Positions 649 through 49,708 of a DNA stretch of 64,000 nucleotides are shown here, in pieces. The stretch is from Eutreptiella sp. 'Long Island Sound 2002' (Eukaryota > Euglenozoa > Euglenophyceae > Eutreptiales > Eutreptiaceae), in assembly GCA_964036045.1 (NCBI GenBank), contig OZ038382.1, positions 76,184,687-76,248,686 on the forward strand, in the 5' to 3' direction. The position numbers were made by a program, and so were the translations under genes. Below the pieces are notes generated by a model that ran no database searches, was not told the DNA's origin, and saw only the letters and a list, made by a program, of their open reading frames with translations. The first letter of the stretch is position 1. Every line of letters begins with the position of its first letter.

Positions 649-664
649 CGGTAGCAGAGACAGT
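649..664 (+). other. Primer-binding site, tRNA-iMet-like
   Basis: Directly after the LTR end, CGGTAGCAGAGACAGT resembles the PBS TGGTATCAGAGCCAGG used by many plant retrotransposons that prime with initiator Met-tRNA. By eye 12 of 16 positions agree. The same sequence follows the LTR in both palindromic copies (50,882 plus; 48,541 minus). Confidence 0.55.
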
Positions 665-727
665 CCCTTGAGACCTTTTGAACCGACCCTGAGAAGTGCA
701 GAACAAAAGCTCAACAAAAAGTCCATA

Positions 728-2902: not shown

Positions 2903-2926
2903 GGGGGCGGCTCCGAAGAGGAGGAC
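2900..2926 (+). promoter_or_regulatory. Gag-pol UAG readthrough site
   Basis: gag and pol are in the same frame with only the UAG at 2900-2902 between them. The next 24 nt are open and encode GGGSEEED, leading directly into the protease. The stop is followed by GGGGGCGGC, a purine-rich context reminiscent of the gammaretroviral UAG readthrough signal. The stop and the 24-nt spacer are kept at 46,253 (minus) and 53,170 (plus). Readthrough is inferred; a reinitiation mechanism is not excluded. Confidence 0.65.
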
Positions 2927-7909: not shown

Positions 7910-10900
7910 TGACAAGCAAGGTGTTATGAGACAAGGTGTGTCTTCCCTCCTTGGGGACAAGCGAGCCCACAGTTAGGACCCCTGACTGGTCCAGACCCAT
8001 GGGGTTCTACCCTTCCTTACAGGGTTTACCTCACCCTTACCTGCCATAACGTATGTGTGAGTGTGCTAGTCCTAAGGTCCTGAGAGCAAGCCGCAGAAGT
8101 GGTGTCCTAATTATACCCAAGTCTGCGCCCTTGCTAAACCCGGAGGGTTGGCTTATTGATGCCACGGGGTACGCCCCGGGTCTCCCCTCCCCTATGCGCC
8201 CAATTTCTGTGCTGGTGCAAAACCTGGGGGGAATACCCAGAGTGTTAGTCCTGGTATTGTTTTCCCTACCTACCTGACTACTACTACGAGGGGTGGCCAA
8301 AAGCTATGAAGGCATGCAAAACGCCTGTTTGCTATGTGGCCAAAAACACTAACCTAACCACTGTCACAGCCCACCAGCCCAGCTAAAATTGCAGGAAAAG
8401 GGTGGGACAGTGACACGCCCCCTACAGGTCCTACACACCCTACAGTGGCACCATCCTGGTGGGCGAGCACTGGGCAACTGGCTCTAGCCCCCACTCAGGA
8501 CTACCACTCCTACACGCACACTCTACTTGGCGTTGCGGAGGTGAAGTTCTCATGGGTCCTAACGACCCTCCTGTGAAAAGGACAAGAGAACACAGCGCTC
8601 CTAAGCAGCTGTGGCCTAACAGGGGACGCCACAACGCGTTTCCCCTGCTAGGGCTTGGAGGGAAGGGGTGCTCTCGTTGCGTGCACAGCGCAGATGTCGT
8701 TGAAGTCGGACTGTCCTCGCCACTCCTGGCTGAGGCACAGTGATTTGATTTGTGATCAGCGCCCCTGTTTTGCTGGGGCAGAAAAATGGTAGCCGCCGAA
8801 GGCAGCTGCTGCGTGCACCAATCACCCTAACCTCTCCCACCTGTACAAAAGAGGCAGATGAAGGGGCGTTTGCGACTGTGGAACCAAGCCACACTCCAGG
8901 TATTATACCCTTCTCAGTGTGACCTATAATACGCTGTTCGCAAACACGCTGCAGGTGCAGCTACCCCTGTCAAGCAAGCAAGCTTTAAGAAACTCCTCGG
9001 GTTCTCTTAAAGAACGTACCGAGGAGCCTCTGGGTAACCTAAACAAGGTTTACCGTGCGCAATTCGCGTGGCCTACCCTTTAATGCATCATGTGCACGCA
9101 GGGAAGGGAGGCGTAACCACAGACTCAACCAGGAGGTGAGCTCCTCCTGGGCTAACCTACCTTACTCACCATGCATCGTGCGAATGCCGCATTGAAACGA
9201 ACACAAAACAAACCTAAGCGTTTTAAGCAACTCAACTTGAACGCTACGGCCGAACACGTACAAACGCTTACCTGTGAAGAAGGAAACAAGGGTGGATTAG
9301 GGATACAGGTGAAGCGATACAGCGTGTGGATGCCTAGATTAGGCACATGCATCGCGAGCACAGCGCATACTCTAACCCTACGTGCGCGCTGCGCGCTCCA
9401 TCCGCATCACATACCTTTCATTCCTGCTTTCGCCTGTGCAGAGCACGAGAGATGAACACCCGACCCCCCAACGAGCACAGCGTTGACAACCCTAACGTTT
9501 TGACGGAACAACCAACACGAACGCAATGCGTGAGTGTGAAGTGACACAGACATACCTGAGAGACGGGTTGTTGAACTGCTCTGTGGTGCGGGCTGATTTT
9601 GAATACTTTACTCTGAAGTTTATAAAAATTTTGATGCAACTGTGCAAAAATTTTCTTTAAAACCTTAAAAACTACGGCTCATACCTTCTTTTCCAAAAGC
9701 CGTTTTCGCTTGCGCAACCCTTTTCTTGGCGTCCGCTTCGTTTGCGCTTGTCTGCGACTTTAAGTTATGTGTAAAAATGACGATTTCCCGCGTGGTTTCG
9801 TCGATTTTCAACGATTTTACTTGCTAAATCGCAGCCCCTTCCGCAAAACCGCAGGAATCACTCCCTGCTGGTTCCATTTTCTATTTTTTTCAGCTCCTGG
9901 GGGTTTGTGTCCTCCATTGGGAGTATTGCTCCGCCCTGGCCCTTGGTCAGGACGTTTACTAAAACGCTGTTTATACGGCGATAACCGTCCGCATTAGAGC
10001 GTTCGACTGTACCCTAGTGGACAGACACATGTGCTCTGGACAGGGAGTCCTGGGTTCAATTCCCACTGCCCCCACACTCTTTCCAAAAGTTTTCGCCTCA
10101 CGCCGACGACTTTTGAGGAATGCCCCTTCGAAGGGACATCATTCACGGTACATTACACTGTTTTTCAAGGGTCCAAACAGTGTGATAGGCTTCTATGAAG
10201 TGATGAGAATGTTTTTGGTAAGTTTAATGCATTTTTTTGGGGTAATTTTGGGAATATTTGAGCCTTTTTCCTTGGTCCTACTAGCTTGATCAACTAGTAC
10301 TCCAGGGGGGAGTAAGAAAAAGTCACTGCCATGTCTTTCTTGTAGGGCTTGATCCAGGCTAAGCCCCCCTTAAAACCCTTTGTTGATGCTGAGACAAACT
10401 TAAGTGTTTTTATCACTCTTTTGTGGCCTAAAGTACACTTTCTCAAGGTAACTAGGGTTGTGACCCTAGCCCCCCCCATGAAGTTCACCCCTACCACTCA
10501 ACTGAGCGGAGGTACCTTCCTTCATGGAGGTCATACCAAAATAAATCAGGCATTCCATGCTTGTGGGCCTTGGAGGTTAAGCCTAAGTGGTCTCCCACCC
10601 CAAGACCCCTATACTCAATTGATTCTACCACTTATTGTGGTCCTACTTTGTAACTGTTTCTGAATTCAGTTGCTTGGCCAAGTCATTTTCTGTGTGGTCC
10701 TGACATCTATGCCCCTCAGTCCTAACCAGCACCATTTCACCCAAAAGAGTGCACATGAAGTGCCTATTACAACCTCTGAGGCTAGAGTCTGACCAATTTT
10801 CATATAAAACCTTTTGCATTATTCATTTGTGATTGAATCTATGTTCATATACCTGCTTTGTCTATCTGCAGCCCTTCTGTGTTACACTGGATTCCAAAAC

Positions 10901-11035
10901 CAATCATTGATTTCATTGATTCGATCCATATTCAGTCCTTGCTCTACTTGCTGCTTTGGTTTGGGGTTTTCCACTACAAAACCAACTTGCAGGAATACAT
11001 CAAAAGACCTAGGGCATAATTCAAGGACATCTTTC
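7910..11035 (+). repeat. 3' LTR of chromovirus A (complete, ~3.1 kb)
   Basis: Starts TGACAAGCAAGG immediately after the polypurine tract and ends at 'catctttc' 11,028-11,035, matching the 5' LTR end at 648. The last ~650 bp equal window positions 1-648. The whole LTR aligns with the reverse-strand LTR at 58,637-61,654; about 8,045-8,400 differs from the other copies (a replaced or diverged block). Candidate TATA elements are near 9,619 and 10,812. No protein-coding ORF in it is credible. Confidence 0.85.
10008..10072 (+). other. tRNA-like (pol III box A/B) module inside the LTR
   Basis: TACCCTAGTGG (10,010-10,020) resembles a box A/D-arm and GGGTTCAATTCCC (10,052-10,064) matches a T-arm/box B, followed by TGCCCCCA like an acceptor end. 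No matching 5' acceptor strand was found and the anticodon arm is unclear, so this is tRNA-derived rather than a working tRNA gene. It recurs in the LTRs at 39,770-39,840 (plus) and 59,585-59,650 (minus). Confidence 0.35.
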
Positions 11036-11916
11036 TCACAGGATCCACACATCTGTGGCGTCACGTACCTTCCCCTAGCCTTGGTAGCTGCCTTACCTGC
11101 ACTAATTGGCCAGCGCCGTTCCCCAGGTCCCTTCTGACCTGTTTTTAAGGTCAGGAACAAGGTTCACGCCCACTTACAACGTGGGTTGGGTCTGTATAAT
11201 TCTCTTGAACCCATTTGGGTTCAAAATTCGAGTTCCCTTAACCGCACCCACGCAACTAAGAAGCAAACGACGCAAACGCACTGTAGCTGTGGTGTCTTTG
11301 TAGCCTGTATCAGCCATTACTCTCAAGGTTAGACAAACGAAAAGGGTTCGGTCCGGTCAAACCAGTCAAATAAGACGAAATGGGGTAGATCTGAAAAATA
11401 CTCTTGAACCTAAAAAATAGCGTGTTGTAACAACACCTGCCGTAACATAAAAACCAGTACCTGTACCTGCAATCTGTCCCACCTGGTGAAACCAGATGGA
11501 AAGTATGCAATTGGATCCGGTCAAGATCAGGTCAAATGAAACGAAATAGGGTGCCCTTTGGCTCCAAAAAATCAACAAACACCCCAATAGCGCCAAAGAG
11601 AAAGTCACAGGGCTAGACACGGGCGTATCAGGTAGGAGGTCAGTAGGAGGTCAAACAGAATTCACCGCGCAGAGAAGGGAACAGAATGCAATGGAGTCTG
11701 GCCTTTCAATACTATATCTGGGTCCGGGAACCGGTGTCAAGGGTAAAATTTGCCAAGCAAACAGCAGTCTGCTGACCCCCCGCCGTAGAAGAAAATCGCG
11801 GAGCCTGCAATGTGTGGGTTCAGATCTCAGTCTTGGACCGGCGATGCGCTCTGCCACTACACACGCCATCATCTCACTGCCCAAACCACTTCATAAAGCA
11901 AGCACTAGAAAAACTT
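11036..11916. other. No gene recognised; short diverged direct repeat
   Basis: Between the 3' LTR and the SET gene. The only structure seen is a motif repeated about 167 bp apart (near 11,352 and 11,519), each with GGTCAA followed by GACGAAAT/AACGAAAT and a GGG run. It may hold the 3' untranslated region and terminator of the minus-strand gene group; no poly(A) signal could be assigned. Confidence 0.4.
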
Positions 11917-14465
11917 CTAGCGCTTCCAATTAGGGTTACCGGAACCCTCGCGCGAGACCCCCCACTGATCCTCCAACCCAATGGCGGTCTCTTCGGGGAG
12001 ATAGACCACCCATGCAACTTGGGTGGTTCCCCTCTTTTCGGTTTCCCGCTCCACCTGCCGAAAGGTCCTACCCCCTGCAAGCCGCTTCTGATTGACGTCC
12101 GAGACCCAGAAGGTTTCAAAACTGCTGAGTCGGCCCTTGGAGTCGGGCCGACAGAAGGTGAAAGGGGCGGTGCACTGGTCCGAGTCGACCAGAGCGAGGG
12201 GGAGATAGGGGACGGCCTTTTCTGGTGGCAGAAGACAATGCGTCGGATTGCCCTTGCTGAGCATCTCCTCCACCTCAGCCTTCGCCTTCTGAACGGGGAC
12301 AGACCTCTTCATCTGCCATTTCCCCCCCCAAACAACAAACTTGGACAGAGTTGTCCAACCAAAACTTGGATCCCGAACGTCAAACTGCTGCCTCAAACCT
12401 GCTCCCTGCACCGGCAATGACCCCCTACGAATGAACTCTTTAAAAAAATTTGCCGTTGCAAACGTGCAACGGTACGGACCCCCATCGACACGAGCCCTCT
12501 GTGCCTTGGGCTTGTCAGGCTCAACGCCGCAGGGGGGGCTGACGTTCAAGCTCTTTCCCCAATGCTCGATCCGCGACTGCAGAATAGGCATCTTAGCCTG
12601 CGCCCTGTCCACCACCACCTGACAAATCCGCCTGGTCCTCGGCGAATCCAAGCCTCCAGCTTCCCAGACCAGCAGAAACCAGCTGGACTTGCCCCTCAAA
12701 TTCTTGCTGCACTCGGCAATGACCGAGATGCATTGGCCCATCCCTCCCCCAGTCCCTGAACCGCCGTCGACGAGCTTAATGGCATGACCATTAACCCTGC
12801 AAATGACATGCCCATACACCCTGTCCTTCACCCTCTCGTACACGGACTTGTCCTGGGTCTTGATGGTTTTTTTGCCAGGCGGACCTACCAGGTGCTCCGC
12901 CAGCCACTCAGCCCAATCTAGCGTCGCCCCCCACCGGCTGTCGACACCCATAGCCCTCTCTGCCCGGACAAAAAATGTCTTCTGGCGGATACCACGCGTT
13001 GCAGCTTGGTATTCCGCATCATACCCCCTGAGGTCGATTCCGACCTGCAGCCACTGACGCGTCTGGCCGTACACGTCTTTCCTATTCTGCACCGAAATCA
13101 CCTCCCACTTACCACCCACAAACACCGTTTCTACGACACCCCCAGGAGCAGCCCCCTCGAACTCGGAACAAAACCAGGCAGGGTAAACGCCTGCAAGTCG
13201 CGACCCAGCCGTGATGAAGTTGCCCCCAAAGAATTCTGGTCACCCCAGACCGTGGTCAACGGCGTGACGAACCTCCCCTTCCGCCAGTTCCTCTTGAAAC
13301 AACAGGTCTTGCTTTCAACCTGTGTCAAGTGCGGCATCCCCATCTCGGACCGCAGCAGACGCACCCTGTCCCCCTTCCTGACAATAAACTTCCCCCCATC
13401 AACATGGGTCACGGTGGCCTGGCTGGGGTAGGTCACCTTCGAAGAAAAATACTGGCGAGCCACCAGGGACCCGTCATCAGCATACAGTTGCCCTGCAGGC
13501 AGGGCAGAGGCGCTGGAAAGAATGTTCTGGGTGGTTAGAACTGGCTGGTTGGAACCTTCTGCAGCAGGTTCATCAGGGTCAGCAGCATCAGCAGGTGGAG
13601 GCGAAGGGGGCAACGGGTAATCTGCGCCATAGAACATGGCCAGCTCGGTACCCGCCTTCTCCTCCCGCCGGGTATAAACCCTGGGGGTACCGTCGTCCAG
13701 GTGGATGATCACATCGCAATCCTCCAGGCGAGGGCGAGCGTTGATACGGCTAAGAATATTCCCCCTTTTACCCCCGTCCACCCAAACCCCCCTCCTAGTC
13801 TTTGAATCTGCCCCCCGCCCTTGATGCACAAAACCTTATCACCCCTACCCGTCAGGCAATCCGGTGCCGTCCCTTCAATCCTTTCCCCCTTGTACTCCCC
13901 CAGGCAGGTGCCCGCCTCAATATCCACCTTCGTTTTCACCCCCCGGCCTTCCCCAATCGTGGACTCCACGATCTGGAGGTGCTTCCCCATAACAAAATGC
14001 GGCCGCTCCACCACCGCCGGTTGCCCCCCCTCCTCCCCCGCCCCCGTGTCCCTCACTCGGCGTTTCCTTGTGCTTCGGCTCCTCGTTGTGACCCCCTCCG
14101 GTTGCTTAGCAATCCCCCCGCCCCCCGCTTCTGCCCCCTTCCGCCCACCCTCCGCCTCCGCAGTCTCGGTGTCCTTCTCCTTCCCCTTCTCCTCCTCCGT
14201 TTTCTTTGCCTCCTCCTCCTCCTGCTCCTCCATCAACACGTCGGTCGGGGTTGGGTTGACCACCGGCGACTGGGGCTGGGGGCTGGGCGAGCCTTCTCCA
14301 AGAAGCTGGCGTTCAGGGCTTGGGCTGGGGCCTCGCTCCTTCTCATGGGCCCACTTCTCCGCGGTCTCCTCTCCCCTTCCCCTCTTGCCGAGAACTGAAT
14401 ACAAACAGCAAGGATCAGAGTTAAATTCTCAAGAAGCACAGCAGCAGAAGAAAACACTTACGCAT
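11917..14465 (-). CDS. SET-domain protein with unknown C-terminal region (two apparent frameshifts)
   Basis: Proposed start ATG at 14,465, one extra base, then a 67-bp GT-AG intron (14,461-14,395; donor gtaagt, acceptor attcag) and a long exon. The N-terminal ~130 residues are charged and disordered with an NLS-like TRSRSTRKRR. A SET-like N-terminal half (ESTIGEGRGVKTKVDIEAG, then LGEYKGERI) is followed, in another frame, by its C-terminal half (GNILSRINARPRL, then AGTELAMFYGADY). The switch falls at a G run (13,787-13,792). A second switch lies between ~13,175 and 13,225, after which a 402-codon frame runs to 11,917. The usual NHSC motif is not seen: RINARPRL stands in its place, so methyltransferase activity is doubtful. 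Past SET, RKGDRVRLLRSE is faintly BAH-like; the rest is unrecognised. Both frame breaks look like missing Gs, so either sequencing error or decay is possible. Confidence 0.6.
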
Positions 14466-14496
14466 GCAATTACATACCAAGGGCTCTCACATCCCC

Positions 14497-17400
14497 TCAG
14501 TGCAGGTCCCAGGACACCCTCCTCTTCTTCTCCCGCTGCGGCGTCTCCCTGTGCCCCACCGTCCTCCACCAATCCTCCCCCTCATCCGACTCCCACGCGG
14601 CCAGCAGCTCGGCCGCCAGGTCCTTCGTCGTCTCCGACCTTGGACTTGCAGGACCTATAGGTGCAGGCATATGGTTCCGTTTATGAGGCTCTTTGTGAAT
14701 CAGTAATTAGGGGGTAGCCTATCGAGGTTGATCATCAGTGGTGTTGTGAAATCAGTGGCAAACCTGCTTCTGCTGTTGACCAGGATCGCGGGGGTGGTAA
14801 TCGGTGGTGACTGTGGGACTCGTCAGATGGCGGGTGTGAGAGGGGCTAAGATGGGTCGGGGTGTGTTGATTGGGCAATGGCCTGTGCCGCCCGAGGGGTG
14901 AAGCACCTGCAGCGGCTTTCTTCTCCGCCTCCAGCTTGGCTGCCTCGTCTGCAGCGGCTTTCTTCTCGGCCTCCAGCTTGGTTGCCTTGTCTGCAGCGGC
15001 TTTCTTCTTGGCCTCCAACTTGGCTGCCTTGTCTGCAGCGGCTTTCTTCTCGGCCTCCAAGTTGGCTACCTTGTCTGCAGCACGAGGAACAGATGGATGG
15101 GGCAGGGGGTTGCATGGGTGATGGCACAGCAAGCAGAGGAGGAGGGCGGACGGGGGTCGGGGAGTATACGACGCAGAGGGTAAACCAATAGTCAGGGGGT
15201 AGCCTATCAAGTTTGTGCATCAGAGGCCCTTGGTAAATCAATAGTCAGGGGGTAGCCTATCAAGTTCGTGCATCAGAGGCCCCCGGTAAATCAATAGTCA
15301 AGGGGTAGCCTATCAAGTTCGTGCATCAGAGGCCCCCAATAAATCAATAGTTACGGGCAGGCCTATCAAGTTCGTGCATCAGAGGCCCTGGGTAAGTAAA
15401 TAGTCAGGGGGTAGCCTATCAAGTTCGTGCATCAGAGGCCCCTGGCAAATCAATAGTCAGGGGGTAGCCTATCAAATTCGTGCATCAGAGGCCGCTGGCA
15501 AATCAATAGTCAGGGGGTAGCCTATCAAGTTCGTGCATCAGAGGCCCCCGGTAAGTCAATAGTCAGGGGGTAGGCTATCAAGTTCGTGCATCAGAGGCTG
15601 CTGGCAAATCAATAGTCAGGGGGTAGCCTATCAAGTTCGTGCATCAGAGGCCCCCGGTAAGTCAATAGTCAGGGGGTAGGCTATCAAGTTCGTGCATCAG
15701 AAGTGCCTTTGGAACTGTTGATGTGTCGACCAGGATCGCAGTGGTGGTAATGGGTGGTCACTGTGGGACTCGTCAGATGGCGGGTGCGAGAGGGGCTAAG
15801 ATGGGTCGGGGTGTGTTGATTGGGCAATGGCCTGTGCCGCCGGAGGGGTGAAGCACCTGCAGCGGCTTGCTTCTCCGCCTCCAGCTTGGCTGCCTCGTCT
15901 GCAGCGGCTCTCTTCTCGGCCTCCAGCTTGGCTGCCTTGTCTGCAGCGGCTTTCTTCTCGGCCTCCAACTTGGCTGCCTTGTCTGCAGCGGCTTTCTTCT
16001 CGGCCTCCAACTGGCTGCCTTATCTGCAGCGGCTTTATTCTCGGCCTCCAGCTTGGCTGCCTTGTCTGCAGCACGAGGAACAGATGGATGGGGCAGGGGG
16101 TTGCATGGGTGATGGCACAGCAAGCGGAGGAGGAGGGCGGACGGGGGTCGGGGAGTATACGACGCAGAGGGTAAACCAATAGTCAGGGGGTAGCCTATCA
16201 AGTTCGTGCATCAGAGGCCCTTGGTAAATCAATAGTCAGGGGATAGCCTATCAAGTTTCTGCATCAGAGGCCCCCGGTAAATCAATAGTCAGGGGGTAGC
16301 CTATCAAGTTCGTGATTCAGAGGCCCTGGGTAAACCAATAGTCAGGGGGGAGCCTATCAAGTTCGTGCATCAGAGGCTTCCGGTAAATCAATAGTTACGG
16401 GCAGGCCTATCAAGTTCGTGCATCAGAGGCCCTGGGTAAACCAATAGTCAGGGGGTAGCCTATCAAATTCGTGCATCAGAGGCCCCTGGCAAATCAATAG
16501 TCAGGGGGTAGCCTATCAAATTCGTGCATCAGAGGCCGCTGGCAAATCAATAGTCAGGGGGTAGCCTATCAAGTTCGTGCATCAGAGGCTGCTGGCAAAT
16601 CAATAGTCAGGGGGTAGCCTATCAAGTTCGTGCATCAGAGGCCCCCGGTAAATCAATAGTCAGGGGGTAGCCTATCAAGTTCGTGCATCAGAAGTGCCTT
16701 TGGAACTGTTGATGTGTTGACCAGGATCGTGGTGGTGGTAATGGGTGGTGACTGTGGGATTCGTCAGATGGCGGTTGCGAGAGGGGCTAAGATGGGTCGG
16801 GGTGTGTTGATTGGGCAATGGCCTGTGCCGCCCGAGGGGTGAAGCACCTGCAGCGGCTTTCTTCTCCGCCTCCAGCTTGGCTGCCTCGTTTGCAGCGGCT
16901 CTCTTCTCGGCCTCCAGCTTGGCTGCCTTGTCTGCAGCGGCTTTCTTCTCGGCCTCCAACTTGGCTGCCTTGGCTGCAGCGGCTTTCTTCTCGGCCTCCA
17001 ACTGGCTGCCTTGTCTGCAGCGGCTTTATTCTCGGCCTTCAGCTTGGCTGCCTTGTCTGCAGCACGAGGAACAGATGGATGGGGCAGGGGGTTGCATGGG
17101 TGATGGCACAGCAAGCGGAGGAGGAGGGCGGACGGGGGTCGGGGAGTATACGACGCAGAGGGTAAACCAATAGTCAGGGGGTAGCCTATCAAGTTCGTGC
17201 ATCAGAGGCCCTTGGTAAATCAATAGTCAGGGGATAGCCTATCAAGTTTCTGCATCAGAGGCCCCCGGTAAATCAATAGTCAGGGGGTAGCCTATCAAGT
17301 TCGTGATTCAGAGGCCCTGGGTAAACCAATAGTCAGGGGGGAGCCTATCAAGTTCGTGCATCAGAGGCCCCCGGTAAATCAATAGTTACGGGCAGGCCTA

Positions 17401-20400
17401 TCAAGTTCGTGCATCAGAGGCCCTGGGTAAACCAATAGTCAGGGGGTAGCCTATCAAATTCGTGCATCAGAGGCCCCTGGCAAATCAATAGTCAGGGGGT
17501 AGCCTATCAAATTCGTGCATCAGAGGCCGCTGGCAAATCAATAGTCAGGGGGTAGCCTATCAAGTTCGTGCATCAGAGGCTGCTGGCAAATCAATAGTCA
17601 GGGGGTAGCCTATCAAGTTCGTGCATCAGAGGCCCCCGGTAAATCAATAGTCAGGGGGTAGCCTATCAAGTTCGTGCATCAGAAGTGCCTTTGGAACTGT
17701 TGATGTGTTGACCAGGATCGTGGTGGTGGTAATGGGTGGTGACTGTGGGATTCGTCAGATGGCGGTTGCGAGAGGGGCTAAGATGGGTCGGGGTGTGTTG
17801 ATTGGGCAATGGCCTGTGCCGCCCGAGGGGTGAAGCACCTGCAGCGGCTTTCTTCTCCGCCTCCAGCTTGGCTGCCTCGTTTGCAGCGGCTTTCTTCTCG
17901 GCCTCCAGCTTGGCTGCCTTGTCTGCAGCGGCTTTCTTCTCGGCCTCCAACGTGGCTGCCTTGTCTGCAGCGGCTTTCTTCTCGGCCTCCAGCTTGGCTG
18001 CCTTGTCTGCAGCACGGGGAACAGATGGATGGGGCAGGGTGTTGCATGGATGATGGCACAGCAAGCGGAGGAGGAGGGCGGACGGGGGTCGGGGAGTATA
18101 CGACGCAGAGGGTAAACCAATAGTCAGCGGGTAGCCTATCAAGTTCGTGCATCAGAGGCCCTTGGTAAATCAATAGTCAGGGGGTAGCCTATCAAGTTCG
18201 TGCGTCAGAGGCCCTGGGTAAACCAATAGTAAGGGGGTAGCCTATCAAGTTCGTGCATCAGAGGCCCTCGGTAAACCAATAGTCAGGGGCTAGCCTATCA
18301 AATTGGTGCATCAGAGGATGCTGGCAAATCAATAGTCAGGGGGTAGCCTATGAAGTTCGTGCATCAGAGGCCACTGGCAAATCAATAGTCAGGGGGTAGC
18401 CTGTCAAGTTCGTGCATCAGAGGCCCCCGGTAAATCAATAGTCAGGGGGTAGCCTATCAAGTTCGTGTATCAGAAGTGCCTTTGGAACTGTTGATGTGTT
18501 GACCAGGATCTTGGTGGTGGTAATGGTTGGTGACTGTGGGACTCGTCAGATGGCGGGTGCGAGAGGAGCTAAGATGGGTCGAGGTGTGTTGATTGGGCAA
18601 TGGCCTGTGCCGCCCGAGGGGTGAAGCACCTGCAGCGGCTTTCTTCTCCGCCTCCAGCTTGGCTGCCTCGTTTGCAGCGGCTTTCTTCTCGGCCTCCAGC
18701 TTGGCTGCCTTGTCTGCAGCGGCTTTCTTCACGGCCTCCAACTTGGCTGCCTTGTCTGCAGCGGCTTTCTTCTCGGCCTCCAGCTTGGCTGCCTTGTCTG
18801 CAGCACGAGGAACAGATGGATGGGGCAGGGTGTTGCATGGATGATGGCACAGCAAGCGGAGGAGGAGGGCGGACGGGGGTCGGGGAGTATACGACGCAGA
18901 GGGTAAACCAATAGTCAGGGGGTAGCCTATCAAGTTCGTGCATCAGAGGCCCTTGGTAAATCAATAGTCAGGGGGTAGCCTATCAAGTTCGTGCGTCAGA
19001 GGCCCTGGGTAAACCAATAGTAAGGGGGTAGCCTATCAAGTTCGTGCATCAGAGGCCCTCGGTAAACCAATAGTCAGGGGCTAGCCTATCAAATTGGTGC
19101 ATCAGAGGATGCTGGCAAATCAATAGTCAGGGGGTAGCCTATGAAGTTCGTGCATCAGAGGCCACTGGCAAATCAATAGTCAGGGGGTAGCCTGTCAAGT
19201 TCGTGCATCAGAGGCCCCCGGTAAATCAATAGTCAGGGGGTAGCCTATCAAGTTCGTGTATCAGAAGTGCCTTTGGAACTGTTGATGTGTTGACCAGGAT
19301 CTTGGTGGTGGTAATGGTTGGTGACTGTGGGACTCGTCAGATGGCGGGTGCGAGAGGAGCTAAGATGGGTCGAGGTGTGTTGATTGGGCAATGGCCTGTG
19401 CCGCCCGAGGGGTGAAGCACCTGCAGCGGCTTTCTTCTCCGCCTCCAGCTTGGCTGCCTCGTTTGCAGCGGCTTTCTTCTTCGCCTCCAGCTTGGCTGCC
19501 TTGTCTGCAGCGGCTTTCTTCTCGGCCTCCATTTTTGCTGCCTTGTCTGCAGCACGAGGAACAGATGGATGGGGCAGGGGGTTGCATGGGGGATGGCACA
19601 TCAAGCGGAGGAGGAGGGCGGACGGGGGTCGGGGAGTATACGACGCAGAGGGTAAACCAATAGTCAGGGGGTAGCCTATCTAGTTCGTGCATCAGAGGCC
19701 CTTGGTAAATCAATAGTCAGGGGGTAGCCTATCAAGTTGGTGCATCAGAGGCCCCCGATAAATCAATAGTCAGCGGGTAGCCTATCAAGTTCGTGCATCA
19801 GAGGCCCTGGGTAAACCAATAGTCAGGGGGTGGCCTATCAAGTTCGTGCATCAGAGGCCCCCGGTAAATCAATAGTTACGGGCAGGCCTATCAAGTTCGT
19901 GCATCAGAGGCCTCTGGCAAATCAATAGTCAGGGGTTAGGCTATCAAATTCGTGCATCAGAGGCCGCTGGCAAATCAATAGTCAGGGGGTAGCCTATCAG
20001 GTTCGTGCATCAGAGGCCCCCGGTAAATCAATGGACAGAGGGTAGCCTATCAAGTTCGTGCATCAGAGGCCCCCGGTAAATCAATAGTCAGTGGGTAGCC
20101 TATCAAGTTGGTGCATCAGAGGCCTTGGGTAAACCAATAATCAGGGCCTCTGATGCACGAACTTCATAGGCTACCCCCTGACTATTGACTTGCCAGCGGC
20201 CTCTGATGCACGAACTTGATAGGCTACCCCCTGACTATTGATTTGCCAGGGGCCTCTGATGCACGAACTTGATAGGCTACCCCTTCACTATCGATTTACC
20301 GGGGGCCTCTGATGCACGAACTTGATAGGCCACCCCCTGACTATTGACACACCGCACACGCAACACAACACACCGAAGGGGCACACCGGTGAACAGGAGC

Positions 20401-23400
20401 CAGGAGGCCCAGGACACCGCACACGCAACATCACACACCGAGCGGGCGCACCGGTGAACAGGAGCCAGGAGGCCCAGGATACCGCACACCCAAAACAAGA
20501 CACCGAGCGGGCACACCGGTGAACAGGAGCCAGGAGGCCCAGGACACCGCACACGCAGAACAACACACCGAGCGGACGCACCGGTGAACAGCAGCCAGGA
20601 GGCCAAGCACACCGCACACGCAAAACAACACACCGAGCGGGCGCACCCGTGAACAGAAGCCAGGAGGCCCAGGACACCGCACCCGCAACACAACACACCG
20701 AGCGGGCGCACCGTTGAACGGGAGCCAGGAGGCCCAGGACACCGCACACGCAAAACAAGACACCGAGCGGGCACACCGGTGAACAGGAGCCAGGAGGCCC
20801 AGGACACCGCACACGCAAAACAACACACCGAGCGGGCGCACCGGTGAACAGGAGCCAGGAGGCCAAGGACACCGCACACGCAACACCACACACCGAGCGG
20901 GCACACCGGTGAACAGGAGCCAGGAGGCCCAGGACACCGCACACGCAAAACAACACACCGAGCGGGCGCACCGGTGAACAGGAGCCAGGAGGCCCAGGAC
21001 ACCGCACACGCAAAACAACACACCGAGCGGGCGCACCGGTGAACAGGAGCCAGGAGGCCCAGGACACCGCGCACGCAAAACAACACACCGAGCGGGCGCA
21101 CCGGTGCACAGGAGCCAGGAGGCCCAGGACACCGCACACGCAACACAACACACCGCGCGGGCGCACCGCTGAACAGGAGCCAGGAGGCCCAGGACAACGC
21201 ACACGCAACACAACACACCGAGCGGGCGCACCGGTGAACAGGAGCCAGGAGGCCCAGGACACCGCACACGCAAAACAACACACCGAGCGGGCGCACCGGT
21301 GAACAGGAGCCAGGAGGCCCAGGACACTGTACACACGTAGGGCGGCCGAGGGACAGGGAAGAACCAACACCCCATGGGTCGGACACACTGGGGCAACCCA
21401 GCCGACCCACCGGGCCAGTGGCAGGAGCGGTACTCCACGGCCACTCTTCCGAGCCAGGCCAGGCTGCATCGGGGACCATGGCAAACGTCACCCGGAGCCA
21501 TGGAAGCAACCAGTGACAGGCGAGCCGGTACACAGTCCAGGAGGGGGTCGCCTGCAGCGCGGAGCGGCCTCGCAACTCAAGCCACAAGGGTGAGGCGGTC
21601 GTACCGTAGACAAGCGGGAGCAATACCCCTTGTGGTAAGAGATACTCCACACGGCTGGGCAGCCCCCAGAGCTGCCGCCCAAAGGAGGGGGCATGTGGCC
21701 CTACTCATGGACACATGTGGGGACACCCTCCCACCTGGGACACATGGACCGGGTGGCCGCGACAATGCCTTCCCAAGCACATGCGGGAGCGGCTCAAGAG
21801 GCACATGACATAGGGCGGTGGGAGGGACAGGACGTCCCCTTGGCAAGACCTTCTTCCTGCATTGTCAAAGGAGGCATCCCGAGCTCCCGAAGATACCTAC
21901 CTACCTACCTTGATAGGCTACCCCCTGACTATTGATTTGCCAGGGGCCTCTGATGCACGAATTTGATAGGCTACCCCTTGACTATCGATTTACCGGGGGC
22001 CTCTGATGCACGAACTTGATAGGCCACCCCCTGACTATTGACTTACCAAGGGCCTCTGATGCACGAACTTGATAGGCCCCCCCCTGACTATTTACTTACC
22101 AAGGGCCTCTGATGCACGAACTTGATAGGCTACCCCCTGACTATTGCTTTACCGGGGGCCTCTGATGCACGAACTTGATAGGCTCCCATGGTGAGGCGTA
22201 GTAATGTAGTGTCACAATGTAGTGTCTTGCAATTCCTGGCAAACCTGCAGGGAGTTCTTGTCGCAAATCGTGCTCCGTGTCTTCTCCTCTTGCTTCGTCT
22301 CCGGCTGGTGCTGGTGCTCCTTCTGCCGCTTCTCCTCCCGCTTCTTCCGCAGCAGCGACTTCCTCCGCTGCTCCTCCTTCCGCTCCTTCTTCTGCCTCCG
22401 CTGCTGCCTCCGCCGCTGCTTCGCCCGCGGCTTGCTCCGCTTGCCGCGCACCTGTATCAAGGGATGTGCGTTGTATTGTTGGGCCAAGCCTATCAGCCTC
22501 GTGCATCCGAGGTGTTTGAAATCAGTAGCACACCTTCCGGTGCTGCCTCCACACCTTCCACGTTGCCTGCTTCGGGCTCTTCTGGCTCCTCCGTCTTGGC
22601 ACTGTAGGCGACGATGGGAGGACTGCTGCTGGCATGCATCAGTGAGACGCTCGCCCAACAGTGATATATTATACCTTCCTCTTCTGTCATCTTCACTTGT
22701 TCCTCATGACGGGCAGGCATTGTGGATACTGAAGAAGGTGTTCTAGAATCCAGGAAGAGCGGATGATCGGGAACTACATCCGTATGCAGCACACGTACTG
22801 TTCTGTGCCAATTACGTAAAATATTCCTAAGGTCTAAGTCGCTTAGTTCTAGCGATAGAGGTAACAAATGGACCTCGCTACCGCCTAAAACAAGGGAAAC
22901 GACCCACTCTGCACCACAGCACGCAAACACTGCACACGACCAACCATCTGGCCGATGTACACAGTGAAATTTCTTAAGGTTCGGCTCGGTAGAGAATGGC
23001 CATGGCTGGTGCTGGTTATGCACCTGCCAATGCCGCTTAAGGACGTCCCACAGAACGGTTCCACGTTGTTGCCGTTGGGCAGAATCCGGACACAGAGAAT
23101 CCAGAATCCACACTTCAGGGGACGAGAGCAGATGAAGAAAAACTGCAACCCACCAGTGCCCCTGCTCGCCACAGACCATAATAAACCAATCGAGAGCAAA
23201 GCAGTTTTCCTTCGGTGGCAAGCTCTTTTTCCGCCAAAGGGTAACAGGCCAGACCCTTCGCTGGAGGCCGAGTTTCCGACGGAGGAGCAAATTCATGAGT
23301 TGCACTCGAATTTCAATCAAATTATCTCCGATCCAACGATCACCCCCTAATTGTTCCGTTATTTCACGGTTTTTGAACAAAATGCCTAGGAGTCTGATGC

Positions 23401-23572
23401 CATCTACCCCGGATGCAGGGCCCTCGGCAGGAGATGGGGTGTCGTCGGCATCAATATATTCCGGGTGAGGAGGCGAGGAGGTTGAAGTTGGCTCAGGGCT
23501 AATGGGTCCGTGCAGCGCAGTGGTGCCGGGATTAGCAGCTTGCATGGGCTCCGGAGATTCCACGTCGGCCAT
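14497..23572 (-). CDS. Ulp1-like (C48) cysteine protease with tandem-exon Lys/Ala/Glu tail
   Basis: Exon 1 from ATG 23,572 to 22,534 holds a Ulp1/SENP-type fold: catalytic His in GEQGHWWVAVF, Asp in VWILDSL, Cys in RPDGWSCAVFACC (H139, D158, C213 from this ATG). The Gln expected before Cys is not evident. Such proteases cleave SUMO-like tags and also occur in DNA transposons. GT-AG signals then give exons 22,451-22,245 (acidic, Ala-rich), 19,546-19,421, 18,797-18,630, 18,006-17,839, 17,056-16,848, 16,065-15,857, 15,074-14,907 and a last exon 14,654-14,497 ending in TGA. All junctions are phase 1, so the array exons can join in frame; the two 209-bp exons each lack one base. The frame is open above the ATG as far as the TGA ending the J-like ORF, so the two may be one protein. 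The SET gene begins 31 bp downstream. The exon chain is inferred from consensus and frame. Confidence 0.6.
14907..19546 (-). repeat. Array of six duplicated exons encoding a 14-residue Lys/Ala/Glu repeat
   Basis: Six blocks code on the minus strand for KAAADKAAKLEAEK-type repeats of 42 bp (14 residues, two heptads). Sizes are 126 (19,421-19,546), 168 (18,630-18,797), 168 (17,839-18,006), 209 (16,848-17,056), 209 (15,857-16,065) and 168 bp (14,907-15,074), i.e. 3, 4, 4, 5, 5 and 4 repeats, the 209s being one base short of 210. Each is preceded by a pyrimidine-rich tract ending gtgctgcag and followed by gtgcttcacc. Exon-to-exon spacing is 950, 991, 991, 791 and 791 bp. The product would be a long alpha-helix or coiled coil. 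Confidence 0.75.
15182..20140 (-). repeat. 53-bp satellite in introns of the Ulp1 gene
   Basis: Blocks at about 15,182-15,700, 16,174-16,692, 17,165-17,683, 18,115-18,475, 18,906-19,265 and 19,655-20,140 consist of a 53-bp unit whose plus strand contains GGGTAGCCTATCAAGTTCGT. The blocks alternate with the coding repeats, forming higher-order units of 791, 950 or 991 bp. The introns between array exons measure 623, 623, 782, 782 and 782 bp; the difference, 159, is exactly three units. Units differ by single bases and are not separated by spacers. Confidence 0.9.
20145..20345 (+). repeat. 53-bp satellite, inverted block (left part)
   Basis: From about 20,145 the 53-bp unit runs in the opposite orientation (plus strand GATGCACGAACTTGATAGGC). 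The change of direction is abrupt, directly after a normal-orientation unit, marking an inversion breakpoint inside the large second intron. Confidence 0.85.
20345..21335. repeat. 65-bp GC-rich satellite, about 15 copies
   Basis: Tandem unit of 65 bp containing CACCGAGCGGGCGCACCGGT and AGCCAGGAGGCCCAGGACAC; spacing of AGCGGG is 65 bp at 20,961, 21,026 and 21,091. Because 65 is not a multiple of three and the unit lacks stops, all three minus-strand frames stay open for 350-460 codons. These are by-products of the repeat, not genes. Confidence 0.9.
21336..21911. other. Unique GC-rich spacer within the inverted block
   Basis: About 575 bp of non-repetitive sequence between the 65-bp satellite and the next 53-bp units. 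Open frames exist on both strands but show no recognisable motif and continue into satellite. No gene is supported; on the model proposed here it lies in the second intron of the Ulp1 gene. Confidence 0.4.
21912..22190 (+). repeat. 53-bp satellite, inverted block (right part)
   Basis: About five 53-bp units in the same inverted orientation as 20,145-20,345, ending at GATAGGCTCCCATGG near 22,190. With the left part they bracket the 65-bp satellite and the unique spacer, as if ~2 kb of intron had been inverted. Confidence 0.85.
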
Positions 23573-23674
23573 TGATGGCCACCAAACGTGTTCACGCGGC
23601 CAAAGAGCAGGATCATCCCCTAAATCTTCCCCCCGTGGTGCAACGAGGCCGTTCAATTGAGCCTCGTACAGCCG

Positions 23675-24712
23675 TCAGCTATCCCCACAAAGGATGTCTT
23701 TCGCCCCATTGATTCTTTGAATGACACTGATGTCAAACCTCTGAGCCCACAGCACCAGTTTCCGATACCGTTTTTTAACGACGGCCTCATTGGCCCCACG
23801 CGGCAGACCTAGCAGTTCATGAGCCCACGGACGGCTCATGTCAAGCTGCTCCAAAACGGGCTGGCGGGCATCGTGGGTATCCTCCCACCCTACTTGTGCC
23901 TGCACTCGGGCCCAAAGATCGGCCTTGTTTCGCAAGGAGAGGAAAGAGATTGCTGTCTGGGTGAGCTCGCCCCGCTCTTCGGCCTCCTGCAGGAAAAAGT
24001 CCTGCACCTTTTTTCGAAAAGGAGAGTCCCCTAAGGATGCGACCCACGTTTCCAATTTTTGGATACAGTCACAGAGTTCCATTTTCTCCGTGCACTTGTG
24101 GATGTGTCTCTTTACCTCATCCCAATCTTGGGACAGATCTATATCACCAATACTAGACGGCCCCGATGAAGCCGTTGAAGATTGAGAAGGTTGTGAGGTT
24201 TGTTGGCTTGAGGTAGGCGTCAAAGTAGGAGGGGTAGAAGGGGTGGGGAGCTCTGGTGAAGACGACGTTTGGGAGGTGAACTCGCCTAGATCCGGCATGT
24301 CCAGATTTGGGGGTGTTTGCGAAATCCCTTCGTCTTCTGCGTCGTCCACCATCACCTCTGCTTCTGGGTCAGGTATGGCCTCGGCTGCAACCGGTTGGTC
24401 TGACGGATTGGATGCGTTAGGCTTCGGGTCAGGCTTTGGGTCAGGCTTCTCGCTTTGGGACTCATGTTTGGGTATGGAGATGGGCGCAGAGGTTAGTACT
24501 TGGTGCCCACCCTCGGGCGTGAGTGTTTGTACCTCGGCTTGCGAGGCAAAGGAAACGCTCCGCTTCTTATGCTTTTGTGGGCCAGGCACGCGCCCCATTA
24601 ATTGCATCAGCAATGGCCCTTCCGCTGCCATGGCTGCAGCATATGCCGTTGCCTTGGCCTTCTTTTCATCAGAGATTGGTGTCTCCGGTGGCGTTCTAGA
24701 AGTGCACGTCAT
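23675..24712 (-). CDS. J-domain-like protein (HPD motif absent)
   Basis: 345 residues from ATG 24,712 to TGA 23,675-23,677; the frame is open to 24,787 but without an earlier ATG. The first ~230 residues are low-complexity (Ser/Thr/Pro/Glu-rich, QSEKPDPKPDPKPN). A helical region follows, and the last ~50 residues resemble a DnaJ J domain: HELLGLPRGANEAVVKKRYR, then KLVLWAQRFD and INGAKDIL. The HPD tripeptide that stimulates Hsp70 is replaced by QRF, so this is J-like and probably not a normal co-chaperone. After the TGA the same frame continues without another stop into the Ulp1 exon, so J-like and protease domains may be one polypeptide made by readthrough, two adjacent genes, or a gene broken by one mutation. 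No Hsp70 gene is nearby. Confidence 0.6.
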   Translation of the reverse strand: MTCTSRTPPETPISDEKKAKATAYAAAMAAEGPLLMQLMGRVPGPQKHKKRSVSFASQAEVQTLTPEGGHQVLTSAPISIPKHESQSEKPDPKPDPKPNASNPSDQPVAAEAIPDPEAEVMVDDAEDEGISQTPPNLDMPDLGEFTSQTSSSPELPTPSTPPTLTPTSSQQTSQPSQSSTASSGPSSIGDIDLSQDWDEVKRHIHKCTEKMELCDCIQKLETWVASLGDSPFRKKVQDFFLQEAEERGELTQTAISFLSLRNKADLWARVQAQVGWEDTHDARQPVLEQLDMSRPWAHELLGLPRGANEAVVKKRYRKLVLWAQRFDISVIQRINGAKDILCGDS

Positions 24713-24849
24713 GATCCAGGCGATGGGGGTTGAAAGACGGTGCGTGAATCTCAACTGAGGGCTTGGGTTGTCACACACGGAACGCAAAACGTGTCAACCT
24801 GTACCAACTCCCTTCAAGCGGAAGTCTACACCCTCCTTCTCAATATGTA

Positions 24850-24852
24850 CAA

Positions 24853-24886
<34 letters not shown>

Positions 24887-24906
24887 GTATGTATGTATGT
24901 ATACAG

Positions 24907-24955
<49 letters not shown>

Positions 24956-24999
24956 GTATATATATATGTTTTTGTGTGTGTGTGTCTGTATATATCTAT

Positions 25000-25064
<65 letters not shown>

Positions 25065-25100
25065 GATGTACATAAATGTATTTGTATATATATGTATATA
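24850..25100. repeat. Mixed (CA)n/(TA)n/(TG)n microsatellite
   Basis: Runs of CA, TA, TG and GTAT repeats begin about 140 bp upstream of the J-like start codon. Any promoter of that gene must lie in or before this stretch; none could be identified. Confidence 0.9.
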
Positions 25101-25102
25101 TT

Positions 25103-25290
25103 TCACTTGGAGGGAGTAGAAATTGAGTAGGAGGGAGGTGATATTCGCTTGGAGGGAGTGGATTTTCACTCGGAGGGGGTGGAAACTGAGCAGGAAGGAG
25201 GTGAAATTGAGTAGGAAGGAGTGGATATTCACTTGGAGGGAGTTGAAATTGAGGGAAAGGGAGTGTATTTTCACTTGGAGGGAGTATACA
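25103..25290. repeat. G/A-rich minisatellite
   Basis: Irregular tandem copies of a ~30-bp motif with CACTTGGAGGGAGT and GAAATTGAG, lying between two TA-rich microsatellites. Non-coding; frames through it are repeat artefacts. Confidence 0.75.
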
Positions 25291-26237
<947 letters not shown>

Positions 26238-26244
26238 GCTTCCG

Positions 26245-29200
26245 GACGCGGAGCCTGCGCTGCACCGGCGTGTGGCCGTCTCGGGCCCGCAGCGCCCGGC
26301 GGTTGGTGGCTGCCGCGGTGAGGTCCCGGGCGTGGACGTAGGCCGTGGCGTGGGCCGCGCCCAGAGGTGTGTGTCCCCGGTGCGTCAGCGCATGGTCCGT
26401 CTGCGCCCGTTGCGCGACCTCGCCGAGCACCCGCATCGTGGGGGGCCGTAGATCGAGATGGCCGTCACGGCCGGCGACGATGAGTTGGGCGTGGCCAGGG
26501 TCCGGGGGCGTGTTCTGCAAGACGGTGTCCTGGGACGCCGCCCAGTCCGCCTTGTGCAGTAGGGCGTCACTGTGGTGCGAGGTGGCTCGGACGTACCAGA
26601 ACGGGTGCCCGGCGTGTTGCCCCCGCGCGCACAGGCCGTCCCGAAGCCACCTCAGGGGCATCTGGTTGACCACCTTCGCTGCGCCCGCGGGGACCCCCGT
26701 GGTTTGCTCGCGATCTGCGTGCGCGGGAGGTGGAGGATGACTTCGGCGTCCACCGTGTGGACCCATGGTCTGTGTGCACCGTAATGTAGGGGGAGGGAGG
26801 CGGCCACCCCCTCTCCGTCGGGCACCGTGCCCGAGATGGCCACCGCCCACGTGCGGGTGAGGTCGGCGGCGAGAGCGACGCTGGTGGCGTGTTTGCAGGG
26901 TCCGCCCCCGGACGCGTCAGAGGAGGTGTGTCCCCAGGCCTCCGGGATCCAGTAGTATCCGGTGGGGCTGAGCCACCCCGCGTTGAGGTCGGTGGAGTGC
27001 CACCGGACGTCGGGGGGGCTGTGGGTCAGTTGGTCCACGCTCAGCGCCCTGGTGTCGCCTGGGCTGATCGCCGGGTGGTCGTGCAGCCGGATCTCCGCTC
27101 CGGCGACCGTGCTTGCCCAGGACCGTAGCGCCGTCACATGTTCCTTGAGCCACGCCGGGCCCCCGCGCTGGTGTACCACCAAGTGTCCTGTGTCCTCCGG
27201 ACGGTCCTCCAGCGCGTGCACCACCATGTGTGGGTCGTGCGGCACCCCCGTAGCCACCAGTAGGGCGGTGCCACGGGGGAGCCCACGGGGTTCGGGCTGG
27301 CCTGCCCCCACTTGCACTATCACCCACTCGGCCCGGAGCTGCGCTTGTCCCGCCGCTTGGGTGCATTGGTCGTCTGTGGTCACCAGCCACAACGGCGTCG
27401 GCGCTAGGGGCCGGGGGCGTAAGGGCTCTGGCCACGCCACGTCCGCGTTGGGCTCTTGGTGCTCGCTTTCCGCGAGTACGTCGCGGAGGATGTACATGAG
27501 GGCCGCTGGCGGGTGGTACGCCGCCCCCCGCGTGGGGGGGGACAGGCCGTCCCGGCGGCGGTAGCCCCCGACGTGGAGGTGCAGGCCGTCCGGGGTCACC
27601 CGTGGGCCGGTGTGGGCGTCCTGCTTAGCCCTCGTGGGGTGGACGAGTCTCAGGCGGGGGTCCCGTGTGCCGGTGGTGTGGAAGTGGTGGGCCAGGGCAT
27701 CGCGCCACCCGGGGTGGTTGGTGGACTCTTGCTCATGGCGGCAATAATGGAGGTGTTCATCGGCGCATTGGTTGAGGCACTCCCGCACCGCCGTCGGCCA
27801 CGGATCGTCGTCGTCGGGGAAGGGGTGGCGTGGCCCGTGGTGCCCATGCCACGGCGTTGCGTGTGGCACCGTGAGGCGGCACGTGTCGCGGTGTCGCAGC
27901 TTGGCGGTGCGCAGCGTGACGATTTTGCCCGGCGGGGACTGTAGTTGGACATGAGCCGCCCTGGGGCACGCGATGGGGTTGTACATCCCCACTCCCAGGG
28001 CGGCCAGGGCCCGGGGTATGCGGTGGACCCAGTCGCCTCCCGCCAGAGTTGCGAACTCCGGGACGGGGTAGTGCACCTCGGGGCATATTCCGTGCGCGCC
28101 GGCTATCTCCCAGAACATCTTGGTGACCTCCGCGCGCACGGAGGTTGCGCGGTGGTGGACGAGTGTACCCACGAGGGCCACCGCTGCCTGCTGGCACCGC
28201 GTGGGCACCCGTGTGAGCCCCAGAGTCCGGTCATCCTGCAGGCTGTCCCGCGAGGCGTCGAAGGCGTATCGTGCCCTGTCCTTCGCGACCTGGACCGTGA
28301 TGTGGTCCAGGTGGCGTGCAGTTTCGGAGTCGTCGGCGATGAAAGGGGCGACGTACTGCGTCACCCCTCCGAGGATCGCCAGGATGACGTCCTGCACCAC
28401 TTTCGGTGGCGCGAGGGTGTTAAGGCACCAGTGGTGCACTGCCGCCAGGCGTAGCCGGTGCTTGCGCTGCAGGGAGAACTCCCCGTCCGGCTGCAGCTGG
28501 AGTCCCAGGTAGGGGACGGAGTCCGCCGCTGGTACCCAGTACCACGGGTTTTCCAGGTGGGGGCAGAGGCGCAGCTGCAGGCCCGGGACCCCCTCCGTGG
28601 TGGCCATGGCGCACTTGCGGGGGTTGAGCTCCATGCCCATCATCCCCAGGTACGCGGCCACCGCCTCCACGCCCTCGACGAAGTGCTGCAGCGTGTGGGC
28701 CACCACCAGCAGGTCGTCGATATAGGCCTGGATGAGGCCGTGCTCGGCCCCTCCCGGCGGGCGCAGGCGGTGCCCCTGTGCCCTGAGCAGGGGCTCCAGG
28801 AGGAGCGCGTACAGCAGGGGGCTCTCGGGGTTGCCCTGCTGGACGCCGCGTAGCATGTAGACGGGCTGCGTTAGCCCGTGTGCTGTGACGATGCGCAGCC
28901 TGGCGCACGTGTGGAGGAAGAGCAGGAGGTCAATGACGTCCGGCGGCACGGAGAGGTGGCGCAGGATGAGGTGGAGGGCGCCGTGTGGGGCGGTGTCGAA
29001 GGCCTTGCGGGCGTCGAAGGAGAAGACGTAGTTGGGCCTTCCCCGCTGGAGCTGCCGCTGCGCCATGAACAGCGGGGGGCCTGTGTTGGAGCCAGGGAGG
29101 GCCCCCTGCTGCCAGTCGCTGACCACCCCGTGCCGTGTGAGCACCTCCGTGATGCGCTGGGTGAGGGGGCCCGTGAGCAGCTTCATGTCCAGCTGGCCCA

Positions 29201-29385
29201 GGGCTATGGGCCTGTAGTCGTCCAGTCTGGCAGAGCCCGGTACCTTGGGGCTGAGCCAGATGTGCGCGTCCCTCCAGTGCATCGGTGGCCCGGTAGGAGT
29301 GGACCAGGAGCCGCTGGACGGGTGCCGGGAGGGCCTTGATGAAGCGGGCCTCCACGTGGTTAGGACCCGGGGCCTTCCCGCAACC
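26245..29385 (-). pseudogene. LINE reverse transcriptase-RNase H, inverted fragment with frameshifts
   Basis: Read on the minus strand from about 29,385. RT blocks in order: GKAPGPNHVEARFIKALP, then after a frame change near 29,275 WRDAHIWLSPKVPG and LDDYRPIALGQLDMKLL, FSFDARKAFDTAPHG, GVQQGNPESPLLYALLLEP and the active site YIDD (LIQAYIDDLLVVAH). A ~450-residue connector follows. RNase H motifs come next: SDASGGG, then VDAEVILHL; after a second frame change near 26,690, KVVNQM, WLRDG and a terminal SHHSDALLHKADWAA. RNase H after RT points to the I/R1/Tad-like groups of LINEs. Fragment ends match an inversion junction at 29,380 and the insertion boundary at 26,238. The fragment cannot act as it stands. 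Confidence 0.85.
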
Positions 29386-31147: not shown

Positions 31148-31186
31148 CCCCCACCCGCCGCCGCCCTTTGCAGAGCCCGCAGCACC

Positions 31187-34503: not shown

Positions 34504-34639
34504 AGGCCCAGACGGCGGGTACGGGAGGGTTGGGGGGGGGGGATGGGCCCCCTGACCCACGCCCCCCCCACGGTATGGCACGACGTGCGGGGGCGCGCCG
34601 CCTCCCGCGGGAGGGAGTGCGGGGGCGACAAGCGCGGGG

Positions 34640-36692: not shown

Positions 36693-36952
36693 GCAGAGGG
36701 ACGGAAAGAGGCAGAGCGACCCCCCGCCCTACAGTCAGTCGGCGACCCGGCAGTGCTACTGCCCGCCTCTTACCCCTGTGCACGTCAGTCGGCGATCCAA
36801 CGCACCCCACCCAGCCCCCTCCCCCCCTGTCCCGACCCCGTGCACGTGGACTGGGGCCTCCCGGCACGCGCAACACGCTTCACAACGCACAGCCCCACCC
36901 TCAGGACTGGATTCATAGCCGACGACACCCCTCAGTGGCGTAAGAGACTCCC

Positions 36953-37012
36953 GCGGCCCAGTAGTGAGAGCGTCGGTCTTCAATCGTCCAGTGCGGGGGT
37001 TCGATCCCGGGC
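36953..37012 (+). other. tRNA-like segment in the LINE 3' region
   Basis: GGCCCAGTAGTGAGAGCG resembles a tRNA D-arm/box A and GGTTCGATCCC (36,998-37,008) is a box B/T-arm match at the right distance. The T-stem and acceptor do not pair well, so it is probably a tRNA-derived relic or structural mimic. Another box-B-like GGTTCGAACC is at 37,274-37,283. Confidence 0.35.
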
Positions 37013-37245
37013 GTTGGTGCTCCTGGGATCCCTGCACGTAGAGCTCCCTAGTTGGCGACGTGGGAACCACCCCCCCCTCCAGCAACTCGCGCCACCACCG
37101 ATACCGGTGGATCGGGTGGAGGTCTCGTTCGTTTTACCCCCCACCCAAGAAAAACAAAAGACATGGGAGCCACCCGGCCCTGCAGCAGTGCGCACCGTCA
37201 CCTGTACTCAAACAGGTCGATGGGAGGCCTCGTCCGGTATTCGAA

Positions 37246-37271
37246 GGGATCGGTGGGAGACCACCGATCCC
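37246..37271 (+). ncRNA. Perfect 11-bp hairpin with GAGA (GNRA) tetraloop
   Basis: GGGATCGGTGG and CCACCGATCCC are exact complements separated by GAGA. GNRA-capped stems are common protein- or RNA-docking elements. Its place in the LINE 3' region suggests a role in template recognition by the RT, but that is inference. Confidence 0.5.

Positions 37272-49640: not shown

Positions 49641-49708
<68 letters not shown>

Follow-up and report, generated by a model that had tools for sequence, protein, structure and literature searches.

The 3' part of a predicted gene of the euglenophyte Eutreptiella sp. 'Long Island Sound 2002' contains a tandem array of six blocks of 42-bp repeats (minus strand, 19546-14907). 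On balance, we favor the interpretation that the array is a recently amplified exon-plus-intron higher-order repeat in a decaying Ulp1-like, J-domain-like gene. All positions refer to the window, that is, the whole 64,000-nucleotide stretch of contig OZ038382.1 (GenBank assembly GCA_964036045.1, positions 76,184,687 to 76,248,686) that was analyzed. A previous sequence-only reading had described the blocks as exons of a working gene whose exon number determines the length of a helical tail on a Ulp1-type protease. The phase-1 design on which that interpretation was built is present at the end of exon 1, in the acidic exon that precedes the array, in four of the six array exons, and in the last exon. 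The interpretation as a whole is weakened by the two remaining array exons, which are frame-broken, by a TGA codon upstream, and by coding selection not having been demonstrated.

Tandem, near-identical exon-plus-intron units

Each of the six blocks is preceded by a common pyrimidine-rich tract and the acceptor context CGTGCTGCAG, which ends in CAG, and is followed by the donor context GTGCTTCACCCC, with GT at the matching place; one copy carries a one-base change just beyond the donor. Four blocks have lengths that are multiples of 42 and are in frame, namely, array exon 1 (19421-19546; 126 bp, 3 × 42) and array exons 2 (18630-18797; 4 × 42), 3 (17839-18006), and 6 (14907-15074), which measure 168 bp each. 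Array exons 4 (16848-17056) and 5 (15857-16065) measure 209 bp (5 × 42 − 1) and break the frame. These two blocks are neighbors in the array and lack the identical base in the corresponding 42-bp unit, as predicted if whole units are copied. The description of six near-identical exons with a pyrimidine tract, a CAG acceptor, and a GT donor is therefore accurate for the borders of all six blocks, while the proposed multiple of 42 applies to only four of them. The six 42-bp arrays obtained scores of 217 to 369 in Tandem Repeats Finder (TRF), and the array itself is far above chance.

The introns between the blocks are 623, 623, 782, 782, and 782 bp long, the difference between the two classes being 3 × 53 bp, and units with blocks of equal make-up follow each other at 791 or 991 bp from start to start. 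According to TRF, these introns consist mostly of a 53-bp minisatellite. A scan of both strands of the window for ungapped copies of the 53-mer with at most 14 mismatches yielded 62 copies. All 62 lie within 15175-22157, in eight clusters, two of which have the opposite orientation. A diverged relative of the 53-mer was found inside intron 1 (22452-22533, minus strand; 82 bp), with a local score of 32 versus 20 for the highest of 300 shuffles. Likewise, one diverged unit occupies the 3' half of the last intron (14655-14906, minus strand; 252 bp; score of 44 versus 22 for the highest of 300 shuffles). Because such relatives exist in both introns, the 53-bp repeat probably arose from the gene's own intron sequence.

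For a comparison of exon and intron divergence, a unit was defined as an intron plus the following exon, which gives 10 unit pairs that are not independent of each other. Over these pairs, the introns differ by 0.3 to 6.3% and the exons by 1.2 to 4.2%. Homogenization of the introns is thus comparable with that of the exons, and in none of the 10 pairs are the exons significantly more conserved than the introns. The two youngest pairs show an excess of exon differences: the introns differ at 2/623 and 2/782 positions and the exons at 2/168 and 5/209 (pooled, 4/1405 versus 7/377; Fisher p = 0.0027). Faster divergence of exons was also considered as a general rule, which fails, being true in only 2 of the 10 pairs. 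The array consists of tandem, near-identical exon-plus-intron units, as do genes of the LPA and spidroin type, and this higher-order repeat probably grew by unequal exchange.

We propose that the 42-bp block probably descends from a genuine coding exon (DKAAKLEAEKKAAA) that had phase-1 borders, a coding origin being suggested by the four blocks that are in phase and by codon usage. The exon-intron unit would then have multiplied through unequal exchange and carried the frame-breaking deletion along. The present copies would evolve as repeats, not as a protein tail of chosen length.

Reading frame across the predicted junctions

The reading frame was followed from exon 1 (starting after the TGA) through the acidic exon (22245-22451, minus strand; 207 bp, entered and left in phase 1), each of the 64 ordered subsets of blocks, and the last exon (14497-14654, minus strand; 158 bp, entered in phase 1, with a TGA at its end). 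The phase-1 junctions previously assigned to the acidic exon and the last exon were confirmed (22451-22245 and 14654-14497). All 16 subsets without a 209-bp block run to the stop codon at 14497. None of the 48 subsets that include a 209-bp block do so (0/32 with one and 0/16 with both), as the 209-bp blocks exit in phase 0. The symmetric phase that permits in-frame addition of units is therefore kept by four of the array exons and lost in two, so that the exons are not all of phase 1 on both sides. The claim that any number of them can be spliced in frame has to be abandoned for the array and holds for the four unbroken blocks. The block borders are not forced by stop codons, because the claimed frame remains open for 170 nucleotides beyond the supposed donor in blocks 1 to 3 and for 152 nucleotides in block 6 and, in every block, for 133 to 145 nucleotides before the acceptor.

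Coding signal in the 42-bp repeat

None of the three forward frames of the 42-mer consensus contains a stop codon. Shuffling the 42-mer leaves a given frame open in 77% of cases and all three frames open in 40%. Hence, an open frame is weak evidence for coding, and it was rejected as a proof of it. Compared with the consensus, the 25 repeat units contain 19 distinct substitutions, of which 5 are synonymous and 14 nonsynonymous in the claimed frame and none creates a stop codon there, versus 29:91:6 (synonymous:nonsynonymous:stop) for all possible changes of the 42-mer. The corresponding figures in the other two forward frames are 5/11/3 and 3/14/2, and the substitutions are distributed over the three codon positions as 8/5/6. 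No synonymous or third-position bias was detected among the 19 substitutions in the 25 units (synonymous share versus chance, p = 0.78). Coding selection on the blocks is not demonstrated.

The host gene

The gene is split upstream of the array by an in-frame TGA (23675-23677, minus strand), which lies within a J-domain-like stretch. The open reading frame (ORF) upstream of this codon (23678-24793, minus strand; 372 codons from stop to stop) has the partial J-domain-like stretch at its end. Its match with the Pfam DnaJ profile is partial (E = 0.017; 15.6 bits) and under the Pfam cut-off of 27.8 bits. An HPD motif is expected in a J-domain, and as judged by eye, QRFDIS occupies its place.

Downstream of the TGA, exon 1 contains the Ulp1-like part (22534-23674, minus strand). 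As in the Ulp1/SENP family (C48), its ORF has His, Asp, and Cys in order (H173, D192, and C247), here with spacings of 19 and 55 residues; those of yeast Ulp1 and SENP2 are about 17 and 49 to 53. It differs from this family in that neither a family model nor a solved structure matches it. No C48 profile match was listed up to an E value of 10 in Pfam and NCBIfam, and the search against solved structures listed weak beta-galactosidase matches alone (best E = 0.0086). A single-sequence structure model, with a predicted local distance difference test (pLDDT) score of 41, was too poor to use and had no PDB match with an E value of up to 0.001. Of the previously claimed Ulp1-type protease, the motif order and spacing persist, whereas support from Pfam, NCBIfam, or solved structures is missing. 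The predicted protein has basic motifs at both ends, KKRSVSF near its start (24545-24580) and KKRRVSW near its end (14497-14530), which we take to resemble the RVxF docking motif for phosphatase PP1.

The in-frame TGA, a SET-like neighbor with apparent frame changes, and the retrotransposon-rich surroundings together suggest a decaying gene within a repeat-rich region. In the SET-like gene (11920-14428, minus strand), the frame seems to shift near 13790 and again near 13190, where introns are possible, and no family matches cover its long C-terminal part. Its match with Pfam SET has an E value of 0.11. It also matches the NCBIfam AnkI/LegAS4 model, far under the cut-off of that model (E = 0.00035). 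The AnkI/LegAS4 model includes a SET domain.

Weighing of alternative explanations

Several observations weigh against a decaying gene whose blocks evolve as mere repeats. (i) No stop codon occurs in the claimed frame in any of the six blocks, yet the absence of stops among the 19 substitutions is expected 40% of the time. (ii) The claimed frame is favored by a codon-usage score for which the two upstream ORFs served as the training set: in this frame the four unbroken blocks reach 0.46 to 0.52 bits per codon, and in the other forward frames they score below zero. One reverse frame of the blocks also scores 0.33 to 0.37 bits per codon, and there is little support in the acidic exon (0.03 in the claimed frame and 0.11 in another forward frame) or in the last exon (0.10). 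Since a single 14-codon unit underlies all of the blocks, the evidence from codon usage is modest. (iii) The exon excess is singly significant in one of the two young pairs only (p = 0.006; p = 0.20 in the other), and in the other 8 of the 10 pairs the exons differ by 2.4 to 4.2% versus 4.0 to 6.3% for the introns, none of these differences being significant (p of at least 0.37 each). No constraint on the exons is thus demonstrated, but a weak one may exist. (iv) The broken exons could be skipped or could be entered at an internal acceptor-like GCTGCAG downstream of the deletion, so that an in-phase remainder of 126 or 84 bp, or of 42 bp in the second of these blocks, would be kept. (v) Both the TGA and the 1-bp deletion could be sequence errors. 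Frequent indel errors are unlikely here, because the 53-bp arrays have 0% indels according to TRF, introns of one class have equal lengths, and the C-run at a fixed place in the 53-mer has five bases in 35 of 40 copies, the five shorter runs all being due to substitutions.

The points on codon usage and internal acceptors would fit a working gene for a Ulp1-like protease with a Lys/Ala/Glu-rich helical tail, the length of which would depend on how many phase-1 exons are spliced in, with the 209-bp exons being skipped or entered internally. All 16 exon sets without a 209-bp exon being in frame and the slightly lower divergence of exons than of introns in 8 of the 10 unit pairs (not significant in any) point the same way. 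We regard a working gene as unlikely in view of the upstream TGA, the failure of all 48 sets with a 209-bp exon to reach the stop codon, the absence of a synonymous or third-position bias, and the exon excess in the two youngest pairs. The most elaborate form of this idea is a live gene in which exon copy number lengthens the protease tail, the 53-bp minisatellites serve as sites of unequal exchange, and GCTGCAG lets splicing drop the broken units; it is the least probable of the explanations weighed here. At the opposite end, the locus could be a purely noncoding compound satellite of 42-, 53-, and 65-bp repeats that looks like an array of exons by chance. The frequency of open frames in shuffled 42-mers, the lack of codon bias among the substitutions, and the claimed frame staying open for 152 to 170 nucleotides past the donor in four of the six blocks all agree with this. 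Furthermore, the nearby 65-bp repeat, whose length is not a multiple of 3, lies within three overlapping ORFs of 475, 399, and 381 amino acids. Such a satellite would leave it to coincidence that 42 is a multiple of 3, that AG and GT borders are in phase with three other exons, and that codon usage prefers the claimed frame, and we rate it as quite improbable, below a working gene.

An origin of the Ulp1-like, J-domain-like, and SET-like genes as cargo of a mobile element, with the array arising in one copy, is compatible with any of the other readings. Mobile elements that carry Ulp1 genes are known, and retrotransposons are abundant in the window. The flanks 11038-14496 and 22534-26600 share no inverted match of more than 15 bases (best E = 2.7). 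Five ORFs of the region from 11.9 to 24.8 kb were searched for a transposase, and none was found. Inverted repeats within each flank include nothing like element ends (for 21335-26600, among the 25 longest of 551 pairs). A cargo origin therefore seems doubtful to us, ranking just behind the noncoding satellite. A recently amplified unit in a decaying gene thus remains the explanation that we prefer, the blocks being near-identical, sharing a frame-breaking deletion, and lying downstream of an in-frame TGA.

Further repeats and surroundings of the array

Intron 2 contains a 65-bp minisatellite of 15 copies (20349-21334), which lies within the above-mentioned overlapping ORFs, all of them minus-strand stop-to-stop ORFs with one in each frame. 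A 53-bp array at 19651-20146 (minus strand) is oriented like those in the introns of the array. The 53-bp array at 20144-20348 is inverted relative to it and has the same orientation as a further 53-bp minisatellite array at 21909-22184, which is opposite to the array introns. No RNA structure was found for the 53-bp unit (z = −0.15), and an exact 25-base core of the 53-mer had no match in viral or prokaryote contigs.

Retrotransposon sequences include an element at 626-7705, where a 758-amino-acid ORF, which occupies the gag position and has no clear family match, is separated by a TAG from a 1,600-amino-acid pol ORF of the same frame. The pol ORF has reverse transcriptase, RNase H, and integrase matches. 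The segments 1-648 and 10388-11035 are 99.8% identical and resemble long terminal repeats. In 2-kb steps, the GC content is 69 to 78% over 26001-38000 versus 44 to 63% in the rest of the window, and this high-GC stretch contains a reverse-transcriptase ORF (26655-29771, minus strand). At 38592-60823, there is a near-perfect palindrome of 22.2 kb (98.9% over 22,245 columns) with its center near 49708 in an AT microsatellite; it is either an inverted duplication or an assembly artifact.

Euglena endogenous viruses with Ulp1 were considered as a related case, and nothing connects the window to them (PMC12455990). No relatives of four ORFs (the Ulp1-like ORF, the neighboring 440-amino-acid ORF, the pol ORF, and the J-like ORF) were found in viral contigs. 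A literature search for Ulp1 in combination with transposons, SET, J-domains, or algae returned nothing relevant.

Comparison with known iterated exon-intron genes

The sequence-only reading stated that no gene of such a design had been described, which is contradicted by two known systems. In LPA, the human apolipoprotein(a) gene, the KIV-2 repeats are tandem exon-intron units whose copy number sets the isoform size, and the KIV-2 exons are 98 to 100% identical (PMC7613587). LPA resembles the locus described here in that such units are repeated within a gene that also has a protease domain, which is inactive in LPA and putative in the locus. The LPA units are about 5.55 kb long and comprise two exons of 160 and 182 bp that encode a folded kringle, whereas the units of the Eutreptiella locus are 791 or 991 bp long, with one 42-bp-repeat block and mostly minisatellite introns. 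The second system is found in spiders. Argiope MaSp2 and flagelliform spidroin genes have repeated exon-intron units with homogenized introns, for which unequal crossing over has been proposed (PMC9779670). The spidroin genes share with the present array the iteration of exon-intron units in which the coding repeats are of low complexity and the introns are nearly identical. In contrast to the spidroin genes, which are expressed, and likewise to LPA, the locus is known from its DNA sequence alone, and two of its six exons break the frame.

If it is expressed, the locus would be a counterpart, in another eukaryote, of the exon-number systems of LPA and the spidroins, one whose minisatellite introns have been caught while growing. 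It also illustrates that a compound minisatellite can mimic an exon array and that a frame-breaking deletion can be copied along with the unit. The design itself is not new, and the locus would be a further, probably degraded, example of the iterated exon-intron genes represented by LPA and the spidroins.

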